Shown: piece after piece, positions 6,579 to 61,516 of the stretch
Numbering within the stretch: position 1 is the first letter of the stretch
How the letters are laid out: each line of letters starts with the position of its first letter
The notes under the pieces: generated by a model
Database searches by the model: none
Told to the model about the DNA's origin: nothing
What the model saw: only the letters and a program-made list of their open reading frames with translations
Position numbers and translations under genes: made by a program
NCBI RefSeq assembly: GCF_000706765.1
Contig: NZ_CP006018.1
Location: 1,612,001-1,676,000, forward strand
DNA from: Bifidobacterium [indicum] DSM 20214 = LMG 11587
GTDB taxonomy: Bacteria; Actinomycetota; Actinomycetes; Actinomycetales; Bifidobacteriaceae
Length of the DNA: 64,000 nucleotides
Direction: 5' to 3'

Positions 6579-6687
6579 GCTCACACCTCTCTTTCCACGC
6601 CCGGAGCCGTCAAGTCCCGCGTCGCGGCGGGCGGACCCGGACGACGCCAATCGTCGTTCATCTTCAAGGTCATAGAACAGCCAAAGG

Positions 6688-6725
6688 GTTTCATCCAGGT
6701 CAACCGTTCGTTTCCCATCAGTAAC
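6688..6725 (-). promoter_or_regulatory. GlnR-type operator upstream of amtB
   Basis: On the minus strand the sequence reads GTTAC-N6-GAAAC-N6-TTGAC-N6-GAAAC, four half-sites in exact 11-base phase. This is the a1-b1-a2-b2 pattern known for the actinobacterial nitrogen regulator GlnR, placed 110 bases before the amtB start. Binding by GlnR is inference. Confidence 0.65.
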
Positions 6726-17442: not shown

Positions 17443-17838
17443 GGGGCTGATCGGTTTCGACGGTGACCTGTTCGTCGCAGGGAAGCGTGCCGAGAACGCG
17501 GGGGTCCGCTCGTTAATGTCCTCCCGCAAACAACAAGTGCTAAATCTAACCGCACTGAGTTCGCTCTCGCTGCCTGAGCTTCGCGCCAGGATAAACCAGT
17601 GAGCAGCTGCTCCGTTCACTCTCCTTCGCCTTCGGGGGGATGCTGAGCGTCATTAAGAAGACTTGCCCGGACCGCTGCACCGCAGGACGATCCGGGGACT
17701 TTTCCTGCGGCTATGCCCGCCACCAGTCGTCTGCGACACAGGTGGGGGCAGACAGATAGCCATAACGGCCAGCAGACTACGCACGTAGAAGACTGAGGGT
17801 ACGGTCATCGGACCGGGGTTCAATTCCCCGCAGCTCCA
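17443..17838 (+). ncRNA. ssrA: tmRNA
   Basis: The ends GGGGCTG and CAGCTCC pair as the acceptor stem, and GACCGGGGTTCAATTCCCC-type T-arm sequence precedes the 3' end. The tag frame at 17539-17577 reads AKSNRTEFALAA then TGA, a normal proteolysis tag ending in LAA. tmRNA rescues stalled ribosomes and marks the peptide for degradation. A TATACT -10 element lies at 17388-17393. tmRNA genes are frequent integration sites, and accessory DNA lies on both sides here. Confidence 0.95.
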
Positions 17839-17850
17839 CTTATTTACCAG

Positions 17851-35652: not shown

Positions 35653-36337
35653 AAGAACAGCTGCGCAAGAAAAGGAAAATTCGAACTGACCTAGGTCGGC
35701 AGTTCTTCTTCTAATCCGTAACTATATCCTTGCTATGCCATTGTTGTAACTAGTGATAAAATAATGAAGCCACCAAAGTAGGGCTGGCACTGGTCAGAAG
35801 AAACCCGTAAAGAGAATGGCCACAGGGGGAAATTCGATGCAACGAACTGGCAAGAACATAAACAAAGAACCTACTTGTACGCCCAGAAGAGATTACCGTC
35901 CCCTTCATTATGAACGGACCGTTCTCAAAAAAGAGCGACATAAGGCATGAGCTTCCCACCGACCATGAAGTTCATATTACCCAGCAAGCGCATTCGACAG
36001 TGATACGGGGAGATTGTTCTCCATCATCCTCAAGGAAGAGCCAGATGTGGTCAGTTGGATTAATCTGCTACTGAATCAGTGCGGCTATTCCAGGAAAACA
36101 GTCTATAGCGCAACCCTTGTTCTCTTCGTGGAAACCGCGACTATGCATAGATTTAAGTCAATAGCACGTGGGCTCTTCAGCTGCACGTGAAGGCTCATGG
36201 TTGGCGAGGTTTTCCACCACGATAACCGACTCATACCACATGACACAAAAGCATAGGCTTATTCCGATGACAAAGTCCATCCCGAAAATGCCTGCAAATA
36301 TACCCTCGAATAGCGCATCCATAAAGGAGGAGGACTA
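35653..36337. other. 685-base gap inside the DISARM island
   Basis: No convincing gene on either strand. AGAAGAAC near 35651 and GTTCTTCT near 35703 could form a weak end-of-transcript hairpin for the SNF2 gene. A strong ribosome site for drmA (AAAGGAGGAGG) lies at the right end. Either a separate promoter for drmA-B-C lies here or a gene has been lost. Confidence 0.4.
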
Positions 36338-39300
36338 ATGGCTGACAGATTCAAGTATGCCAAAGTGCGACAGGAAATCATAAAAGCAATACGAACCGAC
36401 CTGATCGGCCCGTGCTCTCCGGAGGAAAAGCTGGACGAGAATCCGCGCTACGCCTATCTCGTCGGCAAGCTCGAGCCGCAGCGCGATGAGAATGCACCGG
36501 ACAAGAACGAGCAGGAAGTCGAAGCCGACATTGATTACGGGGATAATAAGGACTTCACACCCGGCAAGGATGATGATAACGAGTCGATATCTACCACGAA
36601 ATTCGAGCTGCCGTCATCCATCGGTATCAGCTTCTACGTGGAAAGCAGTCTCGACTACATCTTCCTGGATGTGACTTGGGGAGACTACACAAAGTCAACC
36701 GAGAAGAGCGTTGGTAAGGATGGGAAGGAACACAGCCGCACGGTTTACAAGAGGACCCCGGAGAAGGAAACCGTTCAAGTCAAATTCAGCGACTTCAGGC
36801 ACACAAAGGACTACACGCTTGTCCGCGATTCAAATATTCATGTCCATGTGTCGCGCATTCCATTAAAGACCGGATACTCTCTCGTTACTGCCTATGTTGT
36901 GAACAAGCGGAGCAATCCGTCCAGTGACGTCGAGGGACTGGTTTTCCAGGTAGGAATCAAGGCTCGAGGAGAAAACCAATCGACGGTGTTCATCGCAGAG
37001 CATGTCTGCAGGGATGTTCCCACGACCGAGGAGTTCTACTTTGAGCAACGGCCGATTATGGGACGCGGCAGAGGCTGCGCTGCCGTATGGGGAAAGACCG
37101 AAAACGGCCGGACTGATTATGTTGAATCCACGTTCATCCCAGAATATGAGCATCCCGGCGTTAGTGCTGCACTTGAGCATTTCTCATCCAAGCTTTCTAC
37201 CTGTCAGATGGCAGCAAAAGATAAAAAGTCGGAAACTATACAGAAGCTGAACGCGCTTGCCGACTCATACGAGGCTTGGATTAATGAAACTCTGACCAAC
37301 AGCTCAAGAATGAGCGATCCAGAATTCCGAGAGCAAGTCGGAGATACGGTTATAGGCCACTGCTCAGAGGCCCTGCGCAGAATTCGGGACGGCATCCGCA
37401 TCATCACGACCGATGATATCTCCTTTGAGGCATTCAGCTTCATGAACAGCGTAATCTTCATGCAGAACAGCATCAAGAACTACGCAAAGAAACACGGAAA
37501 AGGCATCGAGTGCAGTTTCAAAGAGTTTCTCGATCCGAACAACCCGAGGAACGACTTCTCCTGGAGGCCGTTCCAGATCGCTTTTATTCTGATGAATCTC
37601 AAGGGCATTGTGCATCCGGAAGATACTGAGCGTGAATTCGTCGACCTGCTTTACTTCCCGACTGGCGGCGGAAAGACGGAGGCTTACCTTGGACTCATGG
37701 CCTTCACCATCGCCAACAGACGTCTGAGATCTTCTGAAGGCGACAAATACAATCATGACGGCGGCGTAACCATCATCCTGCGTTACACGCTTAGGCTGCT
37801 GACGACGCAGCAACGTGACCGTATCACGAGGATGGTTGTCGCTGCTGAACTCGTCAGGCAGAAAAAACCCCGCTACGGATCAGAGCCGATCAGCATCGGC
37901 TTCTGGGTCGGAGGTGCAGTGACTCCGAACGGGTTCGCCGAAGTGAAAGAAAAGCCGGGCAGCAAGGAGAACCTGCTCTATAAGCAGCTTCTTACGTGTC
38001 CGCTCTGCGGCAAGTCTCTCACAGAAAAGGATTTTTATATCGTACCGGAAAAGAAGTCCGTAGAAATCTACTGCTCAGATAAGCACTGCATATTCTATAA
38101 ATACCCACAGAGCGGGACACGCACCCCAATCCCGGTATATCTGGTAGATGAAGAAATATACGCAAAGTGTCCCACCATTATTTTGTCAACGGTCGACAAG
38201 TTCGCAAAACTGCCGTGGGACGTAAACACGAATGCGCTGTTCGGAAGAGTTGACCACAAGTGCAGCCGCGACGGGTATATTGCAATCGGATCGGAAGAAC
38301 ATCCGAAACACAGGAAGACGGCAAACCTTCCTGCTGCAGAAATTACGAAGGTGAAACCGTTCCTCCCTCCAGAGCTGATTATCCAGGACGAGCTTCATCT
38401 GATCACGGGGCCTCTTGGAACTGTCTACGGTGCGTATGAGACAATTATCGAGGACATGTGTACGCATGATGGAATTAAACCAAAGTACGTAGTCTCCACG
38501 GCAACAATCAAAAATGCGGGCAACCAGGCGAAGAGCTTGTATGCCAGGAACGCAACGAAGCAATTCCCTCCTAATGGCTTCGAGATTGGCGACAGCTTCT
38601 TTATACGCGAAATCCCGATCGAGGAAGATCCGTTCCGGAAATATGTCGGAATTTGTGCTCCTGGGCAGTCCATGAAAACAGCCTTGCTGAGAACTTACGC
38701 CATCATTCTGCAGGCAGCCTACACACTCTCCCTACAAGATGAGTACAAGGACGTCATTGATCCGTACTACAGTTTGATCGGATATTTTAACAGTATCCGA
38801 GAACTTGGAGGTGCAGTCCGCCTTCTGCAGGATGATATTCCCGCTAGAATTAAACGTATCCAGAAACACTATGATTCCAAGAAGCGCAGGTTTCTGGATA
38901 AGACCGACGAGATAACATCCCGAATGTCGTCATGGAGAATACCGGAAAAACTCAATCAGCTTGAGCTGCCTTATACGGCAAAAAACCACATAGACACAGC
39001 CCTTGCAACGAATATGATTGCAACTGGTATGGATGTCGATCGGCTTGGACTTATGGTCGTGACGGGCCAGCCGAAACAGAACTCCGAATACATCCAGGCG
39101 ACAAGCCGCATAGGGCGTGCTCATCCTGGACTTGTAGTGACGCTGTATAACGCTTACCGTCCACGTGACCTTTCGCATTACGAGAACTTCACTGGCTACC
39201 ATGCGCAGCTATACCGGTTCGTGGAGGGGACAACTGCCACTCCATTCTCTGCAAGAGCACGGGATCGTGTTCTACACGCACTTGTTATTTCAGCTATAAG

Positions 39301-39652
39301 ACTTCTGTACCCGGAAATGGCCAACAACAAGGATGCTGCGGCAATTAGCGCTCTGCCACAGAGCCATATCAATACTGTGAAAGAAATGATCCTTGACCGG
39401 ATAGGGATTGTCAAACCATCTGCAAGAGCTGATGCAAGTGAAGAGATCAGCCAGTTCATTGATTGGTGGAAATCAAAGTCAGCGGCAGTGCAGGCCACGA
39501 GACCTCTTCGCTATTACGTTGTAGGAACAGAAAAATACAGCAGGCTTATGAACGGATATGAGCAGCCTCATATCGAGAGCGAGAAACCCACTTTGCGATC
39601 AATGCGTGATGTGGAGAGCGCAGCAAATATGTACTACTACCAGGAGGACTAA
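36338..39652 (+). CDS. drmA: DISARM helicase DrmA
   Basis: A 1,104-residue helicase-like protein. The ATP site is FPTGGGKTEAYLGL, followed by RYTLRLLTTQQ and a four-cysteine zinc knuckle (CPLCGKSL, then CSDKHC). Motif II is IIQDELHLITGPLG, motif III VVSTATIKNA and the C-terminal motif QATSRIGRAHPGLVV with NAYRPRDLSHYENF. These are the marks of DrmA, a DISARM core subunit that binds DNA together with DrmB. The start has AAAGGAGGAGG six bases upstream. It is followed after 1 base by drmB. Confidence 0.88.
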   Translation: MADRFKYAKVRQEIIKAIRTDLIGPCSPEEKLDENPRYAYLVGKLEPQRDENAPDKNEQEVEADIDYGDNKDFTPGKDDDNESISTTKFELPSSIGISFYVESSLDYIFLDVTWGDYTKSTEKSVGKDGKEHSRTVYKRTPEKETVQVKFSDFRHTKDYTLVRDSNIHVHVSRIPLKTGYSLVTAYVVNKRSNPSSDVEGLVFQVGIKARGENQSTVFIAEHVCRDVPTTEEFYFEQRPIMGRGRGCAAVWGKTENGRTDYVESTFIPEYEHPGVSAALEHFSSKLSTCQMAAKDKKSETIQKLNALADSYEAWINETLTNSSRMSDPEFREQVGDTVIGHCSEALRRIRDGIRIITTDDISFEAFSFMNSVIFMQNSIKNYAKKHGKGIECSFKEFLDPNNPRNDFSWRPFQIAFILMNLKGIVHPEDTEREFVDLLYFPTGGGKTEAYLGLMAFTIANRRLRSSEGDKYNHDGGVTIILRYTLRLLTTQQRDRITRMVVAAELVRQKKPRYGSEPISIGFWVGGAVTPNGFAEVKEKPGSKENLLYKQLLTCPLCGKSLTEKDFYIVPEKKSVEIYCSDKHCIFYKYPQSGTRTPIPVYLVDEEIYAKCPTIILSTVDKFAKLPWDVNTNALFGRVDHKCSRDGYIAIGSEEHPKHRKTANLPAAEITKVKPFLPPELIIQDELHLITGPLGTVYGAYETIIEDMCTHDGIKPKYVVSTATIKNAGNQAKSLYARNATKQFPPNGFEIGDSFFIREIPIEEDPFRKYVGICAPGQSMKTALLRTYAIILQAAYTLSLQDEYKDVIDPYYSLIGYFNSIRELGGAVRLLQDDIPARIKRIQKHYDSKKRRFLDKTDEITSRMSSWRIPEKLNQLELPYTAKNHIDTALATNMIATGMDVDRLGLMVVTGQPKQNSEYIQATSRIGRAHPGLVVTLYNAYRPRDLSHYENFTGYHAQLYRFVEGTTATPFSARARDRVLHALVISAIRLLYPEMANNKDAAAISALPQSHINTVKEMILDRIGIVKPSARADASEEISQFIDWWKSKSAAVQATRPLRYYVVGTEKYSRLMNGYEQPHIESEKPTLRSMRDVESAANMYYYQED

Positions 39653-39653
39653 T

Positions 39654-41411
39654 ATGGCTGAGCACTATAATAATAAACTTGGCGAGTTGCGACCAAACCA
39701 AATCATTACAACCTTCGGACCGGGATCGGTTGTAGACGCGGTAAAAGACTCAGTGACTATTCTTGATATCCCGTACTGGAAGGTCAAAGGGAAGAAGATA
39801 CTAGACGGTCGGCTTGCATCCTACCTGAACGTTGATGCCTTCTATATGCCGAGGACCACCTTTGCGTATGACATACCCGTCGTTACTTTTCCTTACTGGC
39901 ATGTTTGCTCCAAATGTGGGAGGCTCTTTGATGCAAGGAAGACGATTGACAGTGATTTTGACACGTACCTGCAATATGGCGTTAATTGCCCCGACTGCGG
40001 ATGGCGCGCTTATCCAGCCCGTTTCATAACAATCTGCGAAAAAGGGCACATGTCAGATTTTCCTTGGAAATGGTGGGTTCATCGCGGAGAAACAGATTGT
40101 GGAGGCAAAATGCGAATGTACTCCACCGGAAGTACATCCACGCTGTCGGATATGCGGTTAGAGTGCTCATGCGGCATGAAAGGAAGCATGAGCGGAGCGA
40201 CGCAGGCTCAGAACTTCGAAGGCCTGTCGTGTAGCGGCATGCACCCGTTCCGGCCGCGCTGCAAGAGCGAAAAGTGCGAGAAACCGGTCATCCCGTCACA
40301 ACGAGGCGCATCAAACGCATACTTTGCCGTGTCGAAAAGTGCCATATCTATCCCACCGTGGATTAATCCCCTATACAACCTGATAGACGAGCATCTCCGC
40401 GGTATCGAGGCGGCTGTAAAATACGGAGCCGACAAGGAATCAGTCCTTCAAGGTGTTTATGAAAATTACTTTTCCGGGTATACACGCGAGGAATTTGATG
40501 CAGCCTATGAGCGACGCATGAAAAACATCAAGGAATTTACGGAAATCAAGCGAATGGAGTATGAAGCCATAACGCATCACGATGATCCGTCCTATCAGTC
40601 CAACAAGAAACACTTCAAGACCGAAGAAGATGCTCTGCCCGATTACTTTAAACGCTACTTCAAGCGAATCATCCGCATAACAAGACTGCGTGAGGTGCAG
40701 GTGCTTCTTGGCTTCACGCGTGTTGATGCTCCCGAACCTGACGCGGATGAACAGCCGGATGTCGTCTACCTGACAAAAGGAGGGGACGAACGATGGCTTC
40801 CTGCTGTAGAGGTAAACGGGGAAGGAATTTTTATCGAATTCAACAGACAAACGCTTGCAGATTGGCTAAATGAGCCCAAAGTCGCAGAAATTTCGGGGAA
40901 ATATGCTGCTTCCTATGAGGAGTACTGTAAGTCAAAGGGATGGACGATAACGGCAGAACGTAATGCCGTTTACGCCCTTATGCATACCTTTTCCCATCTT
41001 CTCATCAAGCAAATGGCCATGTCGTCGGGCTACTCCTCTTCGGCAATCAGGGAAAGAATCTACTTCGGCGACAATATGGCAGGCGTCCTGCTCTACACGG
41101 GAAGCTCCGACAAGGAGGGCTCTCTCGGAGGTCTTGTAGAACTCGGTACGGCAGTCCAGATGACAGACCTCATGCGGGACACATTCCAGGAAGCCTTGAT
41201 CTGCACAAACGATCCGGAATGCATGAACACGCTCCCAGCCGGAAAGAACTCTAACGGTGCCACCTGCCATTCGTGCTGTATGGTTTCAGAAACTGCATGC
41301 GAGAACGGGAACCGCATGCTTGATCGGGGACTTGTGGTTCCTCTTTCGGAACGTGAGGAGACTTCGTATTTCCGAGAGTTGGTGAATGAGCTCTGTCAGG
41401 TGGAGATGTAA
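39654..41411 (+). CDS. drmB: DISARM protein DrmB (DUF1998)
   Basis: A 585-residue DUF1998 protein. It starts MAEHYNNKLGELRPNQIITT, with the typical FGPGSVVDA just after. Zinc-binding cysteines are CSKCGRLFDA, CPDCGW and, near the end, CHSCCMVSETAC. The later HTFSHLLIKQMAMSSGYSS block is typical of DUF1998. AGGAGG is seven bases upstream of the chosen ATG, so the 32 codons upstream are not used. DrmA and DrmB form the DISARM core complex in characterised systems. Confidence 0.88.
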   Translation: MAEHYNNKLGELRPNQIITTFGPGSVVDAVKDSVTILDIPYWKVKGKKILDGRLASYLNVDAFYMPRTTFAYDIPVVTFPYWHVCSKCGRLFDARKTIDSDFDTYLQYGVNCPDCGWRAYPARFITICEKGHMSDFPWKWWVHRGETDCGGKMRMYSTGSTSTLSDMRLECSCGMKGSMSGATQAQNFEGLSCSGMHPFRPRCKSEKCEKPVIPSQRGASNAYFAVSKSAISIPPWINPLYNLIDEHLRGIEAAVKYGADKESVLQGVYENYFSGYTREEFDAAYERRMKNIKEFTEIKRMEYEAITHHDDPSYQSNKKHFKTEEDALPDYFKRYFKRIIRITRLREVQVLLGFTRVDAPEPDADEQPDVVYLTKGGDERWLPAVEVNGEGIFIEFNRQTLADWLNEPKVAEISGKYAASYEEYCKSKGWTITAERNAVYALMHTFSHLLIKQMAMSSGYSSSAIRERIYFGDNMAGVLLYTGSSDKEGSLGGLVELGTAVQMTDLMRDTFQEALICTNDPECMNTLPAGKNSNGATCHSCCMVSETACENGNRMLDRGLVVPLSEREETSYFRELVNELCQVEM

Positions 41412-51227: not shown

Positions 51228-51619
51228 GCTCACCCACCTCCGATATGTGCGGGGAAACGGCCTGTTGCTCTTGACCCAATCGGTCGCGCTCAGCACAACT
51301 GATCGCACACAGGGGGAGAGCCTCAACGGCACCTTTGCCAACCCTGTCACTGCCAGGGCGAGACTACCCATCCTATCCAAGGAAAAGGCAAAATAATACC
51401 GATATCCGGCAGAAAAGCACCGGATTCCAAATCCTGGCGACCCTAGGATGAAACCAGGCAGTTGAGAACTTCGGCACCCAACTCCTCAATCAGATGAGGG
51501 GTATCAGTCCGAAGACGATTCACCCTATAGGTATGCACAAGGTCCAAGCCGAAATACCGGAAGAGCAGTAAGCACAGCGACGAGCAAACCTGCACCGCAG
51601 CCGGCGGAGGGAAACCATC

Positions 51620-52648
51620 ATGAGGGCACTGGTATTGGACAGAACACGCGGCCTGCACATGAGGCAGGTCCCGGTTCCTCGGCCCAAGGCGGGAGAGGTT
51701 CTCATCCGCACCGCCTTTACAGGCGTATCCAGCACAGATCGCGGCATCTACCAGGGAGCACAGGGTTCGATTGAGGCCAATCTCCCGATTATCCTGGGGC
51801 ACGAGAACTGCGGAACCGTGGCGGCCATCGGCACCCGGTCGGTCACCCTGGCTGACGGAGGCCAGGCGGCCGAGGGGGACAGGGTGGCCGTGGACCCTAA
51901 CATCACCTGTCATCGTTGTGATTACTGCCGAAATGGCAGACCCGAACTCTGCCGACACCCGGTGGTCATCGGCGTGACCCGCGGAGGTGGGATGGCCGAG
52001 TACTTCTCCGCCCCGGCCGAGGTGGTCTACCGGCTGCCCGATCGATTGGAGTTTCTGGAGTCCACTGCCATCGGTCCCCTATCCTGCGCCTTGCATGGCA
52101 TCCGATGCCTGGACTTGCGGCCCAATCAGCGGGCCCTGATTGTTGGGGATGGATTCATGGCACAGCTCTTTGCCCAGCTCCTCAGGATTCAGGGCATCTT
52201 TCAGATCGACATGGTCGGATTGAGCGAGACGAAACTGGCCAGGGGGAAGGCGCTGAACAACCTTCATGCCGTCTACAGGTCGGACAAGCGGAGACAGACA
52301 CCGCCCCGGGACCACTATGACCTGGTGATCGAAGCCGTCGGGGTTCCCGCCGCCGAGACCATGGCCATCAAGGCATGCCGCCATGGGGCCCAGGTGCTCA
52401 TGTTCGGCGTTGGCCGCCCTGATGCCCGATTCACGATGAACGCCTATGACATCTACCGCAAGGAGCTGACCATCAAGGGATCCTTCAGCAACCCGTGTTC
52501 ATTCGACGACGCCATCAGCCTCCTTGCCTCCGCTCGCCTGGATATCGCAGGTCTGGTCACCCACACATTGAGCCTCGAACAAGTGCCCGACCTGATGTCC
52601 GGATCGATCGGCGGTGTCATCAAGGCGGTGGTCGCCTTCGGGGACTGA
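51620..52648 (+). CDS. Medium-chain dehydrogenase (glucose dehydrogenase-like), atypical zinc site
   Basis: A 342-residue MDR enzyme. Four structural-zinc cysteines are in CHRCDYCRNGRPELC, GHE is present, and the nucleotide region is ALIVGDGFMAQLFAQLL. The position normally held by the first catalytic-zinc Cys (CGTD) is Ser (GVSSTDRGIYQG). The TDRG pattern resembles bacterial and archaeal glucose 1-dehydrogenases, where that residue varies. Substrate is probably a sugar or polyol, an inference from this resemblance. It is divergent from the AraC regulator. Confidence 0.8.
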   Translation: MRALVLDRTRGLHMRQVPVPRPKAGEVLIRTAFTGVSSTDRGIYQGAQGSIEANLPIILGHENCGTVAAIGTRSVTLADGGQAAEGDRVAVDPNITCHRCDYCRNGRPELCRHPVVIGVTRGGGMAEYFSAPAEVVYRLPDRLEFLESTAIGPLSCALHGIRCLDLRPNQRALIVGDGFMAQLFAQLLRIQGIFQIDMVGLSETKLARGKALNNLHAVYRSDKRRQTPPRDHYDLVIEAVGVPAAETMAIKACRHGAQVLMFGVGRPDARFTMNAYDIYRKELTIKGSFSNPCSFDDAISLLASARLDIAGLVTHTLSLEQVPDLMSGSIGGVIKAVVAFGD

Positions 52649-52799
52649 GGACCGCGCAAGCGCAACCGGGAATCGGAATCCCTAAAGCAGCGGCAACCGG
52701 CACCAGAGGTTCCGTACCGAGCAGCGCATACCATGGTTCCAGCAGCACGTATCGGCCATACGTCAGAATACGGTGCTCGCCACAACAAAGGAGTTATCC

Positions 52800-53195
52800 A
52801 TGCAGCCAATGTCGGCATTCACCACAGACCTCCAGCACTCAGGCATGATTGCCCATAACCTGGATGAGACCGTTGACTTCTATACCGCCAAGCTCGGTTT
52901 CGAGCTGGTGGGAGTCTTCCCCAACGGAGAGAACCGTTGCGCCTTCATGCGTTATGGTCACCTGACCATCGAGACCTGGGAAGGCGAAGAGGCCCCTTTG
53001 ACCACTGGAGCCATCAATCACTGGGCCCTGGATACCCCGGATATCGAAGCCGCCTATCAGAATGCCAGGGATCTGGGGTTGGAGATCAAGGAAGACGGCA
53101 TCCAGTCCATCCCCACCTTCTGGGATCGCGGCATCCGCTACTTCAACGTTTACGGACCCAACAGGGAGACCATCGAATTCTGTCAGATTCTCTGA
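52800..53195 (+). CDS. VOC-family (glyoxalase/bleomycin resistance) protein
   Basis: A 131-residue single VOC module pair: HSGMIAHNLDETVDFYTAKL, LTIETWEGEEAP, HWALDTPDIEAAYQNA and NVYGPNRETIEFCQIL. Metal ligands of the fold are visible at the His, the Glu of TIETWE and the last Glu. It may be an isomerase, lyase or resistance protein. AAGGAG is six bases upstream of the ATG at 52800. It lies 150 bases after the MDR gene, possibly in the same unit. Confidence 0.85.
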   Translation: MQPMSAFTTDLQHSGMIAHNLDETVDFYTAKLGFELVGVFPNGENRCAFMRYGHLTIETWEGEEAPLTTGAINHWALDTPDIEAAYQNARDLGLEIKEDGIQSIPTFWDRGIRYFNVYGPNRETIEFCQIL

Positions 53196-53510
53196 GCCGA
53201 CCATAACCGGCTGCATACGCTGACGGATGCAGCCGGCACCGTTCTTCCGCCCGGACGATTGAGGCGATTCGGCAGTCAGGCGATGTCGTGAGGCAGTATG
53301 CCCTGCAACAGCAGGGTTCCTTCTCATATCCGACCCTCGCTGCTGGCAGGCTCACCAGCTGAGCCGAAGACTACAAGCTTCCCTGCGACCGGCGACTTAT
53401 ACGACGAGGTCGATACATGACCCTCGAACGGAACCACCAGGACCAGGAGACCGATTGGTTCGAATCAAAGCCCGAGGCGAACTAAGCTCTATGCCCATAC
53501 CTTATAACCC

Positions 53511-53541
53511 CGCCTTTTCGCCGCTAAGAAAGGGCGTTTTG
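53511..53541 (+). terminator. Intrinsic terminator after the VOC gene region
   Basis: CGCCTTTTC at 53511-53519 pairs with GAAAGGGCG (one G-U), followed by TTTTGTC. The 53,196-53,787 gap otherwise holds one very short frame (MTLERNHQDQ, 22 residues, 53417-53485) without support, so I see no other gene there. Confidence 0.75.
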
Positions 53542-53787
53542 TCATAGCTGGCGGAATCCCGGTCCAGAGAAGCAGGCTTTGAACGTCATGATTTTCAGCA
53601 ATCGTACGAGTATCGATTTCCATGTGCTTGATTGGAAGGGAATCGTAAAAATGATATTGGGTTGTACTCTGAAGACAGTTATGGTACTGCTGTTCGCGGC
53701 AGCAGGAGCAATGTAGTCCTGATCAAATAGGGCTCAATCGAAGGGAATAGCGGACTATTTTTCCTATATGAAGCTTGGAATTCGGCT

Positions 53788-54990
53788 TCACAAGAGAGCT
53801 TTGTCTGACTTTTTCAAGAAGAGCACAACTATCAAGATAGATAGAAGTAGCGAGATCTCGAAGTTTCCAACTATTAATTGCTTAAGGTCTATTATTTTAA
53901 GCAATAGACCATTCACCCCTAGAACCAGGAATCCGGATATTCGGCTTATTGTTGAGTTGAGCGTTATTAACGTACTGATTCGCTCCTGAGATACCCTTAA
54001 GGAAAATAGCACATCATATAAATACTGCAAGAACATAAAGGCAAATGTCGCTGCACAATATGCGAATATGCCTGCTACCGTGCTAGGGAGCAAAATAAGG
54101 AGCGGCAAAGCGACAGCAAATGGAGTGGCAAAGAGAATGACACGTTTTAAGTGGTAATCGATACGGATAGAGTACGAGAGTATTCCGATTACCTGGAAAA
54201 CAAAATAAAATGCAATTAGGTATTTTTCTCTTATTCCAACTGACAACATGTATGCCTGCCATAAATTGAAATGTGTTTGGAAGAAGATTTGCCCAACCGC
54301 TGTAAGCATTATCAAGAGAGTCAGAGTGCGATTACCTTTTAGTTCGCCTAAGCCAGTTTTCACCTGCTTCAATATGGATGATCCGTCACTCCTTGAAGAA
54401 TGCTCATCTTTCGGGAAAAAGAGAGCGATCGGCAGAGCTGACAGACAAGCGAAGGCAATGCCGAATAAGTACATATTAAAGCCGACAGAAAAGTAAAGTA
54501 CAGCCCCGAGAGAGGCGCCTACTATCATTGCGACTAACGACAATTGACTAGAGATTCGCTTGAAGCGCTTTATCCGCTCTTCCGGATTGGTTAAATTCGC
54601 TTTGAAAATGTTGATCGTCGAGGCCTCTACAGTTCCTGAAGATAGTGCTTCAGCGATACCGTAAAAAGCCCATGCTACTGACATGGCGAGGAAACCGTTC
54701 CCAAAGAAAATGATAAGGCAGGTCAGAATCCAAGCCACGATAGAACACTCATAGATTATCTTTCGATCATAGAGATCTGATATCACCCCGCTTGGGAGCT
54801 CAAAAACGAAGACCGCAACATTGAAGATTGCCTGTACGAACATGATGTCAGCAAGGTTCAGGCCTTTACGCAAAAGAAGTACCGTAAGTATAGCATGGGG
54901 CTGTGACTTGGAAATAGTCAGGAGTGCTAGACTTGCATAGTAGGAAAGCTCGGCTTTATCCCACTTTTCCCGAATTCGTAGTATCTTCAA
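53788..54990 (-). CDS. MFS transporter, probable exporter of the peptide cassette
   Basis: A 400-residue transporter with about 12 helices. Motif A is SGVISDLYDRKIIYECS and an acidic cytoplasmic loop follows the sixth helix (FFPKDEHSSRSDGSS). The start is TTG at 54990 with GGAAGGGG upstream. Codon use is clearly AT-rich, like the genes to the right and unlike the core. It is divergent from the precursor peptide operon across a 270-base promoter region, a typical place for an export or immunity gene. Substrate is unknown. Confidence 0.78.
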   Translation of the reverse strand: MKILRIREKWDKAELSYYASLALLTISKSQPHAILTVLLLRKGLNLADIMFVQAIFNVAVFVFELPSGVISDLYDRKIIYECSIVAWILTCLIIFFGNGFLAMSVAWAFYGIAEALSSGTVEASTINIFKANLTNPEERIKRFKRISSQLSLVAMIVGASLGAVLYFSVGFNMYLFGIAFACLSALPIALFFPKDEHSSRSDGSSILKQVKTGLGELKGNRTLTLLIMLTAVGQIFFQTHFNLWQAYMLSVGIREKYLIAFYFVFQVIGILSYSIRIDYHLKRVILFATPFAVALPLLILLPSTVAGIFAYCAATFAFMFLQYLYDVLFSLRVSQERISTLITLNSTISRISGFLVLGVNGLLLKIIDLKQLIVGNFEISLLLSILIVVLFLKKSDKALL

Positions 54991-55060
54991 TATAGCCCCT
55001 TCCAGTATATCAAGAGTCCCAAAGATTACTCTGCTACGAGTAAAAGACGGAACATGCAGC

Positions 55061-55140
55061 CGGACTGTTCACAAGTATTGCAGTAGTAAGTGACAAGTTT
55101 AGATTGTTGAGTCAAAGAATATAAACGGACTGGTCACAAG
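55061..55140. repeat. Two direct repeats in the divergent promoter of the peptide cassette
   Basis: CGGACTGTTCACAAG at 55061-55075 and CGGACTGGTCACAAG at 55126-55140 differ at one base and lie 65 bases apart (about six helix turns), between the MFS start and the precursor gene. They look like paired operator sites. No regulator gene is in the cassette. Confidence 0.6.
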
Positions 55141-55174
55141 AACTAAAGATGCCCGATTAATGGGCAGATGTTTC

Positions 55175-55209
55175 TTGCTATCTGGCAAAATTTTATAATA
55201 AAATAGCAA
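55175..55209 (+). promoter_or_regulatory. Probable promoter of the precursor operon, flanked by an inverted repeat
   Basis: A perfect -10 TATAAT lies at 55194-55199 with a weak -35 (TTTCTT) 17 bases before it. TTGCTAT (55175-55181) and ATAGCAA (55203-55209) flank the -10 as an inverted repeat. The precursor start is 62 bases downstream. Confidence 0.55.
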
Positions 55210-55261
55210 AGTCACCGCTGACTATCGGGTGGCAACCTATCAATGAAGAAAGGAGTTGACC

Positions 55262-55357
55262 ATGGAAAAGACACTGATTTCTGCCAAGACTGTTCAGGCA
55301 CAAAACACGTCTGAGGCCGAGGATACCGCGGCCCGCGCGGCCACGGTTTTTGCCTAA
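55262..55357 (+). CDS. Candidate RiPP precursor peptide, 31 residues
   Basis: A 31-residue peptide starting MEKTLISAKTVQAQNTSEAE and ending DTAARAATVFA. GAAAGGAG lies seven bases upstream, the best ribosome site in the cassette. It is preceded by a perfect -10 box and followed by a long hairpin and then the E1-like gene. It has an amphipathic, leader-like first half and an Ala-rich tail with one Phe, two Thr and no Cys, as might suit C-terminal activation by an E1-like enzyme. It is too short for normal gene calling. That it is the substrate of the enzymes is inference from position. Confidence 0.65.
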   Translation: MEKTLISAKTVQAQNTSEAEDTAARAATVFA

Positions 55358-55363
55358 GCTAAA

Positions 55364-55407
55364 AAGGAGGGGGGTGTCTGCGCTTTTCGCATAGCACCTC
55401 CTTCCTT
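55364..55407. terminator. Long hairpin between precursor and E1-like gene
   Basis: AAGGAGGGGGGTG (55364-55376) pairs along its full length with CACCTCCTTCCTT (55395-55407), 13 pairs including two G-U, with TGCG/CGCA near the loop. No long T-run follows on the plus strand, so it probably gives partial termination or protects the precursor mRNA. On the minus strand it is followed by TTTTT and would be a full terminator. Confidence 0.65.
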
Positions 55408-55436
55408 GTTCATACATAGAAAGCTGAGGGATATAT

Positions 55437-56519
55437 ATGAGCAACGCAACAAAACAATATGTACTTAATGAAGTAGCCTATGTCCATCATAATGCGGCTG
55501 GTGAGGTATGTATCTTCTTACCCAGAGAAGAAAATGTGAAGTTTCCCGGCGTCAACGGTGATGTGATACTGACAATTCTGGATATCATGTGCAGGCCACA
55601 CACGGTAGGCGAGCTCTCTAAAGAGCTAGAGAAGACTCGTTACTCTGTGGATGATGTGGATTTCCTGGTTGATGAGCTTGTCAGTCGAAACGTGCTCAAG
55701 GAGTACTCAGATCCAGCTTGCCTTTCAACCAGTCTCACCCCTAAACAACTTGCGAAATATGATCGTCAGCTTCTAAATTTTGCTGCGCTTCCAGGCAACA
55801 CGATAGAGGATGCCGTTCGTCAACAGGAGAGATTCAGTGAATCGTCGGTACTGGTTATCGGTGTTGGTGGAATTGGATCATATCTCTCACTTGGGCTTGC
55901 TCAAATTGGTATTGGCACTATTCACATAGTTGACTTTGATGAGATTGAACTATCAAATACCAGCAGGCAGGTCTTGTACCGTGAGAAAGATGTAGGACAG
56001 TTGAAGACCGATGTAGCGTTGAGAGAACTGCAACAAGTCGCGCCAGATGCGACAATAGTTGCACATAACTGTGAGGTACTAAGCGCAGACACTCTTAACC
56101 GAGAATTTGAAAACGTGAGTCTTGATCTGATCCTGGTATGTGCAGACAAGCCTTTAGGCAAATTGGCGCACATTGTTGATGAATTCAGCGAAGCAACAAA
56201 AACCGCTATCCTCTATGGTGGTCCATATGCCAACGGGAAAATCTTCCTGGGGCCCCTGCTATTGCCTGGCAAGACGAGGTCATACTCTGATTTGGTTCCT
56301 CTTCAGAGTATTAGTACCAGCGACAACAGAATAGACAGAATCAACAATGCACATCGTGTGTCTGCCATTGTTGACACAGACAACGCTTTAGCTGCAAAGA
56401 TGATGGAGACGGAAGCAATTAAGTACTTAGGCATGCTTCAAGAGCCCTCTGTTGTGGAACGTCAGATTGCTGTTGACACTACTGACTGGTCAGTACATAG
56501 CGGGCAGTTTGCTCAGTAA
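55437..56519 (+). CDS. RRE-ThiF/E1-like adenylating enzyme of a RiPP pathway
   Basis: A 360-residue protein. Residues 1-90 look like a PqqD/RRE winged-helix that binds a leader peptide (PGVNGDVILTILDIM, HTVGELSKELE, DVDFLVDELVSRNVLKEY). Residues 100-340 are a ThiF/MccB-type E1 domain with GVGGIG (142-147), DFDEIELSNTSRQ (166-178) and GQLKTDVA. The zinc CxxC pairs usual in ThiF, MoeB and MccB are absent. By analogy with PaaA and MccB it would adenylate a carboxylate of the precursor. It starts 79 bases after the precursor gene, with GAGGG upstream. Confidence 0.8.
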   Translation: MSNATKQYVLNEVAYVHHNAAGEVCIFLPREENVKFPGVNGDVILTILDIMCRPHTVGELSKELEKTRYSVDDVDFLVDELVSRNVLKEYSDPACLSTSLTPKQLAKYDRQLLNFAALPGNTIEDAVRQQERFSESSVLVIGVGGIGSYLSLGLAQIGIGTIHIVDFDEIELSNTSRQVLYREKDVGQLKTDVALRELQQVAPDATIVAHNCEVLSADTLNREFENVSLDLILVCADKPLGKLAHIVDEFSEATKTAILYGGPYANGKIFLGPLLLPGKTRSYSDLVPLQSISTSDNRIDRINNAHRVSAIVDTDNALAAKMMETEAIKYLGMLQEPSVVERQIAVDTTDWSVHSGQFAQ

Positions 56520-56533
56520 GTACCACGGATAGC

Positions 56534-57487
56534 ATGACACACAACTTTCTCGAACTCATGAAAGCAATGAATGAGGGCGCGCTCGATTCACGACTACGGT
56601 CTCAAGTTCCTGTGGAACTTCTTCATGAATCCCCATACCTAGACCACAAACTCGATAAGTACTATGAAAGTCACCCGAACCCTGCACCTGTGGATGTCCT
56701 CAAATATCTGCAGTCAGTAGAATCTGACGCTGCGAGGATAATCAGGACAATAGATGTTCCTGATGGTGATGTTCCTACCGCAGAAGTTAGAGAGCTGACT
56801 GGACGTGACGGTGAACTCAGGCTTCTGGACATTTACCTTAACCGTTTATACAAGAACAATGTAATCCTAGTTGGAGCACCAGGTGTAGGGAAAACGGCCC
56901 TGGTCCTTTACTATTTTCGTAGTAGATCGCTGCCATTAATCTCCATATCGGCGGCAGAAATGCTGTCTGGCACTAAATATCGTGGTGAATTTGAACAACG
57001 TATGCAGCTCATGATTAAGAAAGCCCAGCAAGAGAAGTCTACTATCTTTTTTGATGAAATTCATACTCTAATCCATGCAGGTGCCTCTGAGGGAGGGATT
57101 TCTGCGGTGAACCTCTTGAAGCCTGTTATTACGGAGACGAATATCCGTATTATCGGGGCAACAACACCTCAAGAGGCAAAAGAACTATATAAAGATGGGG
57201 CATTCGAGCGAAGGTTCAGTTTTTTAAAATTAGAAGAGCCAAATAAGAAAATGCTGAGGCAAATAGGGGAACAGATTATACGGGAGTCCGGTAATAGCCA
57301 AGGAATGTCTGCAGAAACATACACCGAGGTATTTGATTTTCTCGATAGTCATTTTCCTAATAGGTACTACCCGGATAAACTCATTGACTTCTTAGATTTT
57401 TTCACTACAGCGCAGAAAAGAGCCGGACTAAGCTTTTCGGAAGCTAAAAAGTTATTTGCAGATTCGCAAATTCGAGGAGAGGTATAG
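56534..57487 (+). CDS. Single-module Clp-like AAA+ ATPase
   Basis: A 317-residue AAA+ protein like the first ATPase module of ClpB/ClpA. Residues 1-88 are a helical lead, then GRDGELRLLDIYLNR, Walker A GAPGVGKT (114-121), a pore loop KYRG (149-152), Walker B IFFDEIHTLI, sensor 1 IIGATTPQE and the arginine finger region GAFERRFSFL. It lacks the second ATPase module, the coiled-coil M-domain and the ClpP-binding loop. It may unfold or remodel the precursor-enzyme complex. It follows the E1-like gene by 14 bases. A Clp-type protein inside a peptide cassette is unusual. Confidence 0.82.
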   Translation: MTHNFLELMKAMNEGALDSRLRSQVPVELLHESPYLDHKLDKYYESHPNPAPVDVLKYLQSVESDAARIIRTIDVPDGDVPTAEVRELTGRDGELRLLDIYLNRLYKNNVILVGAPGVGKTALVLYYFRSRSLPLISISAAEMLSGTKYRGEFEQRMQLMIKKAQQEKSTIFFDEIHTLIHAGASEGGISAVNLLKPVITETNIRIIGATTPQEAKELYKDGAFERRFSFLKLEEPNKKMLRQIGEQIIRESGNSQGMSAETYTEVFDFLDSHFPNRYYPDKLIDFLDFFTTAQKRAGLSFSEAKKLFADSQIRGEV

Positions 57488-57488
57488 C

Positions 57489-58610
57489 ATGTATATAGGG
57501 CAGCAGTTAGCCGATGATAGGTTTGCTTTTTACAAGGATATATTGCCTGGAATCAGAGACCAGATTGTATTTGATGAAGAATTTAACGCGTGGTTTGTAT
57601 TCAACGTTCGTCATCTTAACTTATTGGTAAGAGACGAACGTCTACTAGCAAACACCAAAGCTAGTCTTAAGGAACTCCCACTGAACGCAGATACCCTGCA
57701 AGTATTAGAACAGTTCTATTCCAATTGGGTCATGTTTACTGATGGTGATTTGCATAAGACGCTGCGGCGTAGGGTGAATACTCTAATTCTAGACAGGTAT
57801 CGTAATATTGATTACCGGTGGGGGCCGATGGACAAGCAAGGTGATTTTAGTGAGCTTTATGCTGTCCCATATGTATACAACATACTAGCCCAGCTGATAG
57901 GCATATCTGAAAAAGATGTGGCTCTGCTTATTAAAGCTTCCGAGCAAATAAACTCGTTACTTCTACGCGGTTATTTAACGATACATGACTTTGACGCTGT
58001 TGCTCAGTCAATCCGACAAGCATATCAGCTAGTCAACGATGTAGATAGTAGATATCGTGATAGTGACAGATATGTAGGCAATGCCTTACTTGATTTGCCC
58101 AGTGAGCAGAAGTACCCATTGCTGATTAACTTGGTATCGGATGGTTTCGCACCGTTTGTGGCGGCGCTTAATTTCTTGGCCTACAACTTGCTAACTCATC
58201 CTGAACTTGAGCAAGAGGCTGATAGTAGGTCGGATGATATCTGTGCAGAGAGTCTACGGCTATTTCCACCGTTCACAACTATAAGTCGGGTGTGCTCTGA
58301 AGAGGTTCAGGTCGGAGATGCTCATATACTGCCTGGTCAACTCGTAATTTTTGACTTATACAGCATTAACCGGGATCCTGAGTGCTTCCCGGATCCTGAC
58401 TGCTTTAACTTAGCGAATACGGAAAGGGCGTACAGCTTTGGCGCCGGAAAGCACTTGTGCTCTGGTAACCCCCTGGTACGGAAGGCGTTGGGCGCAGTTA
58501 CGAAGCAAAGCGGGCAGATTTATAAATACGAGCTCGTGGACTCAAAATTCATTAATCTCTATGGCTCTACAGATATGAAATTAACCATTAAGAAAAATAC
58601 GAGACTATGA
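57489..58610 (+). CDS. Cytochrome P450
   Basis: A 373-residue bacterial P450. The haem loop is FGAGKHLCSG with the thiolate Cys at residue 324, the K-helix ESLRLFPP has Glu-x-x-Arg, and HKTLRRRVN matches the C-helix haem contact. In the I-helix, LVSDGFAPFVAAL stands where most P450s have A/G-G-x-D/E-T, so the acid-alcohol pair for oxygen activation is missing. The start 57489 has GAGGAGAGG upstream. No ferredoxin gene is near. It would oxidise the peptide, for example a crosslink or hydroxylation. Its stop overlaps the next ATG. Confidence 0.88.
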   Translation: MYIGQQLADDRFAFYKDILPGIRDQIVFDEEFNAWFVFNVRHLNLLVRDERLLANTKASLKELPLNADTLQVLEQFYSNWVMFTDGDLHKTLRRRVNTLILDRYRNIDYRWGPMDKQGDFSELYAVPYVYNILAQLIGISEKDVALLIKASEQINSLLLRGYLTIHDFDAVAQSIRQAYQLVNDVDSRYRDSDRYVGNALLDLPSEQKYPLLINLVSDGFAPFVAALNFLAYNLLTHPELEQEADSRSDDICAESLRLFPPFTTISRVCSEEVQVGDAHILPGQLVIFDLYSINRDPECFPDPDCFNLANTERAYSFGAGKHLCSGNPLVRKALGAVTKQSGQIYKYELVDSKFINLYGSTDMKLTIKKNTRL

Positions 58611-59160
58611 TTGAAACGAGAAGGCTTACGCTGCGTCCATGCAAACCAAATAACTATTTAGAAGCCGGGTCTTTATGCATATATGCGCGAAAGATCCGAA
58701 AGTGGGACCTACTGCAAGGTGGAATCCCTGCACTAGTGTTGACGGTAGTTTGCACGATATAAACACTGTTCTTGCAGTTGAAGGAAACTGTGCTATTTCA
58801 CTGGCAGGAAGTGACCGACCAATAGGCAGTATCGGGTTAAAAAGTAGGGCTATACAAAAGACCGTTAGCAGTAGCTCGGCCTTAAGCGATGATTATAAGA
58901 ACTTGTTGGATAATGCAAAAGAACTTGGGTACTGGATTGGACGTCCATACTGGGGTAAAGGTATAGCAACAGAGGCACTTAGTACAGTACTAAGGCATGG
59001 TTTCTCGACTTTACGAATTGAAGCCATGCGAGGCGATCATTATGACACCAGTGTTCAATCGGCACGGGTTATGGAAAAGTGTGAGATGAGGAAAGTCATT
59101 GAACATCAAGATGATTTTTACTCTGTAATCGGTCAGAATAAAAATCGACAATACAAGTGA
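58607..59160 (+). pseudogene. GNAT acetyltransferase (RimJ/RimL-like), frameshifted by an AT repeat
   Basis: The ATG overlaps the P450 stop (ATGA). Frame one reads MIETRRLTLRPCKPNNYLEA and GSLC, then at ATATAT (58679-58684) the sense moves to another frame: ICAKDPKVGPTARWNP through GYWIGRPYWGKGIATEALS, the acetyl-CoA site, to the stop at 59158-59160. Removing one AT unit restores a full RimJ/RimL-type protein of about 183 residues. So it is either a recent mutation or a slippage switch. Starting at the ATG at 58675 would give a protein lacking the first strand. It may acetylate the peptide or give self-protection. Confidence 0.75.
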
Positions 59161-59217
59161 TTGACTGTTGTAGCTGGGAGAACCGATGATTGCTGCTAGC
59201 ACTAGTCGTTAAACGAC

Positions 59218-59509
59218 CTACAAACAGTGTTTTCGCAGCCGCTGGTTGTGACTTCCGGTTCTCGTAAGAGTAATTACGCTGTCTTGTACTCTATATACTA
59301 GCAGCCAGCCCACGTCTACATGTGGCTCGCAGAAAGTGGCGAAGTCGCCTTTGAGTTGGCGATTTTGTATTTCCCGCCCAGTTCCTGCTTATCGTTATTC
59401 TCAGTGCAGATTGCGCTGCGCTGAGCAGTCGCACATCGTACTGCTTTCTTTTCAACCTTTTGATGTCTCTGAGGAACGAGGGGTTGTAGGTGACTTCACG
59501 CGTTGGCAA
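59218..59509 (-). pseudogene. YafQ/RelE-family toxin remnant
   Basis: Three frames must be joined: TREVTYNPSFLRDIKRLKRK, then ENNDKQELGGKYKIANS, then LKGDFATFCEPHVDVGWLLVY and VITLTRTGSHNQRL, ending at 59218. Together they give a recognisable YafQ-type mRNA endonuclease toxin with its WLLVY and LTRTGSH ends. Two frameshifts inactivate it. The start is a TTG inside the end of the antitoxin remnant. Confidence 0.7.
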
Positions 59510-59676
59510 TGAGCTCTTCGAACCCTTCGTCGCTCTCGACAGGAATTACCGGTTTTGCCAAGGGCTTTGAGTACAACGGTCTCAAATGATGGGACCTGAG
59601 CCAAGGATGGGGAGTTCCTTGTATTGACGACTCGCGTCAATAGAGAGTTTACTGCTATGGCAAGGCCCGTGCCCAT
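59496..59676 (-). pseudogene. DinJ/RelB-family antitoxin remnant
   Basis: Starts MGTGLAIAVNSLLTRVVNT, with PSFETVVLKAL following as in DinJ/RelB antitoxins. A frameshift near 59550 then gives PVIPVESDEGFEELIANA with a stop at 59496, overlapping the toxin start as in intact pairs. The N-terminal DNA-binding half is missing or degraded. Confidence 0.55.
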
Positions 59677-59851
59677 GCTTTAAGACGGCTGACGAGGCTT
59701 ATGGTCGTGGTTGGTCAAGAGTGTCTCGCGCCTGTTGCTGTGGGGAAGCGGCCATTCCCCAGGGAGTGTGTCTTTCAAACGACCCGATAGAATACCACTG
59801 TGTGATACCAAAACACTCGAAATGCAGTACGGCCAGGGGGCCGAAGAAAGA

Positions 59852-61516
59852 ATGATGGCACAAGAGGAATCAAGTTCAACCGACGGAAATAATCTCAATT
59901 CGAAGCAGGGTCATGGGCGGGGCGGAAAGACTGGGCCCGCTGCCAAAGGCAGGACCAGGAAGCGCAACCAGCATCCCCACCGAAGCTGGAACCAGCGCCT
60001 GCATCTCACTGACATCAACGTGGTCGATGCGTCGACACTGAAACGGGCCATCGCCGGCACCGTGGTCGGCAACTTCATGGAGTGGTACGACGTGGGAGTC
60101 TACGGCTACCTGGCCGTGACCATCGGCCGGGTCTTCCTCTCCGACGCTTCGGATGCCATTCAGCGTCTCTTCTCTTTGGGTGTGTTCGCGGTAACCTTCA
60201 TCGCCCGACCCCTGGGCGGTGTGGTGCTGGGCCAGCTCGGCGACAAGCTGGGCCGGCAACGAATCCTGGCTTTCACCCTCCTGAGCATGTCGGCAGCCAC
60301 ACTGCTGATCGGAGTCCTACCAGGGTACGCGGCCGTGGGCCCGCTGGCCCCCATCCTTCTGATCCTGCTCAAGCTGGTCCAGGGATTCTCGACCGGTGGA
60401 GAATATGCCGGTGCATCGACCATGGTCACCGAGTATGCCCCCGACCGGCATCGCGGCTTCTTTGCTTCCCTTTTGGACGTGGGCTCCTACCTGGGTTATG
60501 CCTTCGGGGCCGGTCTGGTCTCACTCCTGGAGTTCCAGCTCTCACCCGAGGCCATGCTTGCCTGGGGCTGGCGCATCCCCTTCATCATCGCCCTTCCCCT
60601 GGCAGGCATCGCCGTCTACTTCAGGGCGAAGGTCCAGGACACCCCGGCCTTTGAGCAGGCGCAAGCCGTTACGGACGAGAAGACCAAGAGCGAACACAAG
60701 GGCCTGGGCGACCTGATCCGAGGGTACTGGAAGGAACTGCTCATGGCCTTCATCCTGGTGGCCGCGGCCAACACCCTCAGCTACACCCTGACGGCCTACA
60801 TGCCCACCTATCTGACAGGCACTCTCCACTACAACACGGCCCAGGCCAACCTGCTATCCCTGCCCGTCCTCCTCCTGGTGGCCTTCTGCATCCCCATCAC
60901 CGGTGCCCTCTCCGACAGGTTCGGTCGCAAAAAGGTACTCTTCATGGGCGCCTTCACCGGACTGTGCCTCTCCCTTCCGGCCTTCAGGATTCTGGAACAG
61001 AGCACCACGGGCGCGGTCTTCGCCGGCCTGGTCCTCCTGGCCATACCGGTCATCTTCTTTGTGGCCAATCTGGCCTCGACCCTGCCCGCCCTCTTCCCCA
61101 CCGCCTCGCGCTACGGCGGTATGGGACTTTCCTACAACCTGGCCGTGGCCGTCTTCGGCGGTACGGCACCGGTCATCATGGAAGGCCTGGTGACAGCCAC
61201 AGGCAAGGGCCTGGCCCCGGCATACTGGATCATGTTCACCTCGGTCTGCGGCCTGGTGACCGTCCTCTTCCTGGCCGAAACAGCCCGCAAGCCCATGCCC
61301 GGCACCCTGCCTACGGTCCTCAACCGCCAGGAGGCCCGCGACCTGGTGGCCACGCAGGACCAGAACCCGGACCTGGACGTCAAGGCCATCATCAAGGACG
61401 CCGAGGAAAACGGCACCCGGAAGACCCCCGAAATGCTCAAGGCCGAAGCCAGGAAGGCGCTTGGGACCAAGCAGTCGGCAGGTGCGGACCGCTCAACCAA
61501 ACCCGCAAAGGCATAG
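59852..61516 (+). CDS. MFS metabolite:H+ symporter (MHS family)
   Basis: A 554-residue transporter with about 12 helices. Family marks are GNFMEWYDVGVYGYL, GGVVLGQLGDKLGRQR, GFSTGGEYAGASTMVTEYAP and DRFGRKKVLFMG. It resembles ProP/KgtP/ShiA-type carriers of osmolytes, organic acids or shikimate. It has long polar ends: about 60 residues before the first helix (Lys/Arg/His-rich) and about 80 after the last (DLVATQDQNPDLDVKAIIKD). Two adjacent ATGs (59852 and 59855) can start it. It marks the return to high-GC core-like DNA. Confidence 0.88.
   Translation: MMAQEESSSTDGNNLNSKQGHGRGGKTGPAAKGRTRKRNQHPHRSWNQRLHLTDINVVDASTLKRAIAGTVVGNFMEWYDVGVYGYLAVTIGRVFLSDASDAIQRLFSLGVFAVTFIARPLGGVVLGQLGDKLGRQRILAFTLLSMSAATLLIGVLPGYAAVGPLAPILLILLKLVQGFSTGGEYAGASTMVTEYAPDRHRGFFASLLDVGSYLGYAFGAGLVSLLEFQLSPEAMLAWGWRIPFIIALPLAGIAVYFRAKVQDTPAFEQAQAVTDEKTKSEHKGLGDLIRGYWKELLMAFILVAAANTLSYTLTAYMPTYLTGTLHYNTAQANLLSLPVLLLVAFCIPITGALSDRFGRKKVLFMGAFTGLCLSLPAFRILEQSTTGAVFAGLVLLAIPVIFFVANLASTLPALFPTASRYGGMGLSYNLAVAVFGGTAPVIMEGLVTATGKGLAPAYWIMFTSVCGLVTVLFLAETARKPMPGTLPTVLNRQEARDLVATQDQNPDLDVKAIIKDAEENGTRKTPEMLKAEARKALGTKQSAGADRSTKPAKA

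Follow-up and report, generated by a model that had tools for sequence, protein, structure and literature searches.

What does a bifidobacterium make with a compact gene cassette that joins a short peptide gene to a ThiF-type enzyme, a Clp-like ATPase and a cytochrome P450, and what would a Clp-type ATPase do in such a pathway? The cassette occupies positions 53788-59160 of a 64,000-nucleotide stretch of Bifidobacterium [indicum] DSM 20214 = LMG 11587 (NZ_CP006018.1, positions 1,612,001 to 1,676,000), which is referred to here as the window; coordinates without a locus label are positions within it. The cassette is a variant of the RRE-ThiF cassettes for ribosomally synthesized and post-translationally modified peptides (RiPPs), marked by a Clp-derived ATPase. 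The explanation that we consider probable is a horizontally acquired RRE-ThiF RiPP pathway in which the peptide C terminus is adenylated and the AAA+ protein (hereafter AAA) is a remodeling subunit. The gene set, the island that holds it, the fold of ThiF, the recurrence of the peptide, ThiF, AAA and major facilitator superfamily (MFS) genes, the grouping of the ThiF proteins and the ATPase motifs were obtained by computation. The MFS gene lies divergently on the minus strand, opposite a plus-strand operon with the order peptide, hairpin, ThiF, AAA, P450 and GNAT:

53341..59776, no strand: inserted island of about 6.4 kb (alignment gap relative to a same-species genome, empty-site sequence, drop in GC content).
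53788..54990, minus strand: divergent MFS exporter (PF07690, E = 4e-20; HP1165-type NCBIfam match below cut-off; E = 8e-11 to Escherichia coli MccC, possibly generic MFS similarity).
55262..55357, plus strand: gene for a 31-residue precursor peptide, MEKTLISAKTVQAQNTSEAEDTAARAATVFA (Shine-Dalgarno [SD] sequence, position, counterparts in four loci).
55364..55407, plus strand: hairpin between the peptide and enzyme genes, a candidate attenuator or mRNA stabilizer (-28.0 kcal/mol, z = -3.2).
55437..56519, plus strand: RRE-ThiF adenylyltransferase, MccB/PaaA-like (PF00899, E = 3e-38; profile search; structure model).
56534..57487, plus strand: Clp D1-like single AAA+ ATPase (PF00004, E = 8e-15; NCBIfam ClpA D1 region; motifs).
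57489..58610, plus strand: short cytochrome P450 with the heme Cys present and an atypical I-helix (PF00067, E = 4e-14).
58607..59160, plus strand: GNAT acetyltransferase in two frames, 58607-58762 and 58675-59160 (Acetyltransf_3 match in the second frame).

All of the genes named in a preliminary description of this DNA were thus recovered by open reading frame (ORF) and Pfam matches, and the frames of ThiF, AAA, P450 and MFS are open. The gap from AAA to P450 is 1 bp, and the P450 gene runs 4 bp into that for GNAT. The GNAT domain is also there, and its gene, which had been taken as a single acetyltransferase gene, is split: the first frame holds the start, and the second holds the match to Acetyltransf_3, which covers profile positions 32-138 of 138. 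The stretch had been called AT rich, and the kilobase blocks from 54001 to 59000 contain 41 to 46% GC, compared with about 60% around them, in a 1.73-Mb chromosome.

The central part of the cassette recurs. A tblastn search of 72,556 plasmid records (E 1e-15) gave three ThiF relatives, and AAA and MFS genes adjoin ThiF in all three. A further tblastn search with the window AAA covered 109 loci; among the 80 genome-contig relatives kept out of 242, one had an adjacent AAA gene (Lactococcus). L024 and L056, with an AAA match about 4 and 6 kb away on the opposite strand, were not counted. The co-occurrence of ThiF, AAA and MFS therefore extends to four further hosts, in all of which a short peptide gene is present:

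Exiguobacterium pE73 (L002): ThiF, AAA, MFS and methyltransferase genes; peptide ORF at 7714-7812.
Priestia (L003): ThiF, with AAA and MFS divergent and an ATP-grasp ligase and GNAT beyond; peptide ORF at 5491-5589.
Pantoea ananatis (L004): MFS, AAA and ThiF; peptide ORF at 2677-2772, preceding the MFS gene and first in the operon.
Lactococcus reticulitermitis (L008, from the genome scan): ThiF, AAA, MFS and methyltransferase; peptide ORF at 6591-6689.

In an unrooted tree of 25 ThiF rows, a single branch (90/91; present in 88% of 200 bootstrap trees) separated the five AAA-bearing ThiFs from the remaining rows, and none of 500 label shuffles grouped them as tightly. Nine control loci, namely L119 and eight MccB-like plasmid loci (L129-L136) including that of E. 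coli microcin C, gave no match to any of the five AAA queries at E 1e-3; the AAA loci did so in 4 of 4 cases. The eight plasmid loci were opened, one per group, from among the 43 of 46 plasmid records that were not AAA loci, and no AAA match was present within the fetched stretches; L115-L118 likewise did not match the AAA queries. Because the five ThiFs group together and the control loci lack an AAA match, the ATPase is best seen, on these sequence comparisons, as characteristic of a single ThiF branch. This branch looks rare. Samples of 395, 348, 326 and 12 genomes searched with ThiF profile A3 (E 1e-50 or 1e-55), which were drawn at order, phylum and genus level under strict limits and do not amount to censuses, contained no new AAA-bearing member; the empty answer from a 345-genome sample was uninformative, as no genome known to match was inside it. 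Phage records had no ThiF match at E 1e-8, and neither the ThiF profile nor the P450 found a relative in IMG/VR.

The peptide gene of the window is preceded by AAGGAG, ending 6 nt ahead of the ATG, and the hairpin 3' of its stop codon, which is absent from the list of T-tailed terminators, was equaled in stability by 1 of 300 shuffled sequences. When the upstream region was shuffled, an ORF encoding 28 to 36 residues with an SD sequence and a hairpin arose in 20 of 400 trials, so that, taken by itself, the window gives weak evidence for a peptide, and the case depends on recurrence at other loci. At all five AAA-bearing loci, an ORF encoding 31 or 32 residues was found upstream of the cassette enzymes, and a hairpin (z = -2.4 to -4.1) comes after it at each. 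The SD scan was passed by three of the five peptide genes (window, Exiguobacterium and Pantoea); in Priestia, an AGGAGG was seen by eye somewhat farther upstream. The script for ORF, SD and hairpin combined was passed by four of the five loci, and Exiguobacterium failed it, probably because of a large inner loop in the stem. The corresponding shuffle rates in 400 trials were 6 for Exiguobacterium, 14 for Lactococcus, 1 for Priestia and 5 for Pantoea. The Exiguobacterium and Lactococcus peptides, whose genes differ by 13 synonymous and 9 nonsynonymous codon changes, were more similar than any of 1,000 shuffles, and this pair looks to be selected at the protein level. The peptide is conserved across homologous cassettes in place, length and hairpin, and the sequence of the window peptide is not; its similarity to the others is not significant, and it is supported by position, length, SD sequence and hairpin. 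Microcin C (McC) precursors are likewise described as unconserved in sequence (PMC6495379).

The assignment of ThiF as an RRE-type enzyme of the MccB/PaaA kind, already made in the preliminary description, gained support from structure prediction. In the AlphaFold model (predicted local distance difference test [pLDDT] score of 86, 11 rows), three strands and three helices form an N-terminal domain ahead of the ThiF core. Foldseek ranked MccB (3h5r, E = 4e-26) first and PaaA (5ff5, E = 1e-23) next, over about 350 columns and the whole chain, and the profile search gave the same order (MccB, E = 5e-48; PaaA, E = 9e-47). The window ThiF matched E. coli MccB directly at E = 1e-29, and the ATP-site positions GxGGxGS, SRQ, K190 and D237 are retained in all five proteins. 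The model and the searches support an RRE-type adenylyltransferase with an N-terminal peptide-binding domain. As to its substrate site, the peptides end in A (window), R (Exiguobacterium and Lactococcus), P (Priestia) and N (Pantoea), and the Priestia peptide contains no Asp or Glu, so that the C terminus is the only acid common to the five. The simplest reading is therefore adenylation at the C-terminal carboxylate, which is the likely site if one chemistry serves all five peptides. In EnfB and IndF, C-terminal adenylation is described as being followed by capture by other nucleophiles (PMC12250964 and PMC12150305).

The ClpA D1 region was the best NCBIfam match of AAA, far under the cut-off of that model (E = 2e-38), and the protein matches the D1 module of ClpA, ClpB and Hsp101. 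All five AAA proteins retain both Walker motifs (A and B), a pair of Arg-finger arginines and an aromatic residue in the pore loop, which reads KYRG, or FRG in Pantoea. At four of the five loci the protein is 258 to 337 residues long, too short for two AAA modules; none of the five contains the ClpP-docking tripeptide [ILV]G[FL]; and Clp_N had no Pfam match in the three proteins scanned (window, Priestia and Pantoea). With the Walker, Arg-finger and pore-loop residues kept and the docking tripeptide missing, AAA reads as a threading or remodeling ATPase that would not feed ClpP, and the Clp proteolytic unfoldase was rejected as a candidate. Compared with the Clp/Hsp100 D1 modules, which it resembles in these residues, it differs in its size, in the missing tripeptide and in the position of its gene beside ThiF. 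The role that we favor is movement of the peptide or product on and off ThiF.

From these results, we infer the adenylation site, the role of AAA, the P450 target, export and bioactivity as follows. The peptide gene would be transcribed with the operon, and the hairpin would probably lift peptide over enzyme, as in mccAB. The N-terminal domain of ThiF would hold part of the peptide while ATP is spent to adenylate the C-terminal carboxylate, and the adenylate may then react with a small amine or with a Lys, Ser or Thr nucleophile of the peptide. The Clp-D1-like ring, acting as a remodeling subunit of the synthase and not as part of a protease, would pull the peptide or product off ThiF and thread it through the pore. 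In this host, the P450 would then oxidize the product, most likely at Phe30, a candidate target because the window peptide has no other aromatic residue and a P450 match occurs at none of the other four loci. The MFS protein would export the product, and GNAT would serve as a tailoring or MccE-like self-protection enzyme.

Several results weigh against this explanation. Only five loci with the peptide, ThiF, AAA and MFS genes are known, including the window, and the branch leading to the window ThiF is long (1.68). Outside the Exiguobacterium-Lactococcus pair, no two peptides exceeded shuffled similarity, and 377 to 944 of 1,000 shuffles scored as high as the window peptide did against the other four. 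The structure model of AAA (pLDDT of 58) was too poor for its N-terminal part or for a fold search. P450 and GNAT had been regarded as part of the conserved set; with the window proteins as tblastn queries, P450 was matched at one of the five loci, the window itself, and GNAT at two (the window and the Priestia flank), so neither belongs to the conserved core. The canonical P450 I-helix motif has an acid/Thr pair. This pair is missing from the window P450, which reads DGFAPF there (DGHEPF and DGYDPF in its plasmid relatives) and retains the heme-ligand Cys, so its reaction may be unusual or the enzyme impaired. GNAT, with its split gene, is probably impaired in this host. Against MccC, the Lactococcus MFS protein gave a marginal match (E = 0.04) and those of Exiguobacterium and Priestia none, and the Exiguobacterium and Lactococcus methyltransferases did not match MccD.

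The cassette works like a microcin C- or pantocin-style ThiF pathway and is, by defining features, a member of neither. With microcin C (mccABCDE of E. coli, here the plasmid cluster of E. coli ATCC 25922, in which MRTGNAN was located upstream of mccB), it shares a short peptide, an RRE-ThiF and an MFS exporter, and it has a hairpin at the place of the terminator and a candidate MccE-like GNAT, in keeping with the gene order mccA-terminator-mccB (PMC6495379); it differs in its 31-residue peptide without C-terminal Asn and in having an AAA+ ATPase, for which the E. coli locus had no match, and a P450. A true microcin C-like peptide-nucleotide, N-P linked at the C terminus and acting as a Trojan-horse inhibitor with GNAT as MccE-type immunity, would fit the operon logic, the closest fold (MccB), the Asn end of the Pantoea peptide and a match of the window GNAT to MccE (E = 1.6e-5, across only 35 residues of a split gene). 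It is nevertheless quite improbable, because the McC precursors found in PMC6495379 all end in Asn, which is required for the N-P bond, and four of the five peptides here do not. Pantocin A (paaPABC) has a precursor of about 30 residues and the RRE-ThiF PaaA, which acts on an internal Glu-Glu with a 2-oxoglutarate oxygenase and an EamA transporter as partners (PMC12250964), whereas the Priestia peptide lacks Glu, the window peptide contains SEAED and no EE pair, and no PaaB oxygenase or EamA transporter domain was present among the six cassette proteins scanned. Enterofaecin (EnfB) and Ind (IndF) likewise use an RRE-ThiF to activate the peptide C terminus, but their cores hold Trp, which none of the five peptides contains; the passages of PMC12250964 and PMC12150305 on these pathways name several transporter proteins for enterofaecin and a peptidase and a transporter for Ind, and mention no AAA+ partner for either. 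A GrcB thiolactone type was rejected as well, since the window peptide has no Cys and the six proteins scanned include no radical SAM enzyme. That ThiF attaches a peptide or modifier to proteins, as in ubiquitin-like or E1-E2 defense systems, and makes no peptide natural product is very improbable: in PADLOC, the ThiF core is matched by E1-E2 models (E = 8e-18) and AAA by those for IetA (E = 2e-11), but the listed E1-E2 matches span only the generic core (about residues 109-267), the full-length fold match is MccB/PaaA, and the proteins scanned contain no E2 or JAB domain, as a bacterial E1-E2 or CBASS-like conjugation would have it.

For AAA itself, the main rival is an immunity or clean-up factor that clears trapped or toxic processed peptide, a function that a single sentence of a 2025 review suggests for "ClpA homologs" in McC-like clusters (PMC12250964). 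This role appears somewhat unlikely given that the ClpP tripeptide is missing throughout, that four of the five proteins are too short for two modules and that AAA is tied to one ThiF group and not to the wider family. The same sentence qualifies the earlier claim that a ThiF pathway with a Clp-type unfoldase is undescribed: no description of a ThiF-AAA-P450 cassette was found in open-licence PubMed Central literature, judged by title and abstract, but ClpA homologs had been named. A separate RiPP class, in which the Clp-derived ring is an obligate biosynthetic subunit that passes the precursor through its pore and presents the C terminus to ThiF or strips tightly bound product, would go further than the preferred remodeling reading and is rather unlikely. 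The cassette might also be a single acquisition now decaying and perhaps productless, given the split GNAT, the P450 without its usual I-helix residues and the presence in a single genome of the genus; we hold this to be unlikely, as the ThiF, AAA, P450 and MFS frames are open, the ThiF and AAA motifs are intact and the insertion appears fairly recent.

The evidence for import comes from the island and from genome comparisons. A same-species genome (G014) aligns with window positions 51600-53340 (94%) and 59777-61500 (99%) with only 43 bp separating them, an empty site that runs from a glyoxalase-family gene to the neighboring MFS gene. At E 1e-20, ThiF was matched in 1 of 27 genus genomes, the window's own; at E 1e-15, 24 of 189 family genomes matched, of which the other 23 reached 3e-20 at best, compared with 6e-239 for the window's own. 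P450s of any kind were found in 2 of the 189. The low-GC island, the empty site, the lack of close ThiF matches elsewhere in the genus and family samples and the rarity of P450s mean that the cassette is imported, and the insertion appears fairly recent, since a genome of the same species has the empty site.

Other observations were made in and around the cassette. On plasmids of Klebsiella michiganensis (L127, 6929-8916; from Bactrocera dorsalis) and Staphylococcus hominis (L128, 653-2595), a short P450 related to that of the window is encoded next to a HAD hydrolase; the Klebsiella P450 is annotated as two pieces, and no ThiF is annotated near either within the stretches fetched. The Priestia flank (L003, 879-2084) carries an ATP-grasp gene of the L-amino-acid-ligase type and a GNAT gene, possibly more tailoring. 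The search for repeats at the island edges gave nothing beyond an imperfect 24-nt inverted pair (75%) at 53458-53481 and 59554-59577, which may be chance or an insertion mark. A 72-residue ORF at 59291-59509 on the minus strand, perhaps a remnant at the island edge, had no Pfam match; its start, judged by eye, resembles a RelE/YafQ-type toxin. Over 52700-60000, Rfam gave no match at gathering score, and promoter-like sites were not above chance (7 versus 10.2 in shuffles). Elsewhere in the window, a DISARM antiphage set lies on the plus strand at 31728-41411 in a lower-GC stretch (about 0.49), comprising DrmMII (E = 2.5e-165), DrmD (E = 0), DrmA (E = 0) and DrmB (E = 2e-80), and a transfer-messenger RNA with the tag AKSNRTEFALAA, a bifidobacterial type of tag, is located at 17443-17839.

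ThiF-like enzymes have recently yielded new peptide chemistry, including imide, indolylamide, thiolactone and N-P bonds. Here, one ThiF branch carries a protein-remodeling ATPase, a partner left unexplained in the relevant passages of the ThiF-pathway texts. If the ring were an obligate subunit, ATP would drive peptide modification in two ways. With five precursors and a core as small as ThiF, AAA and MFS, the system can be tested directly: a self-protective ATPase would bear on the suggestion made in the review, and a biosynthetic one would introduce a new principle into RiPP assembly.

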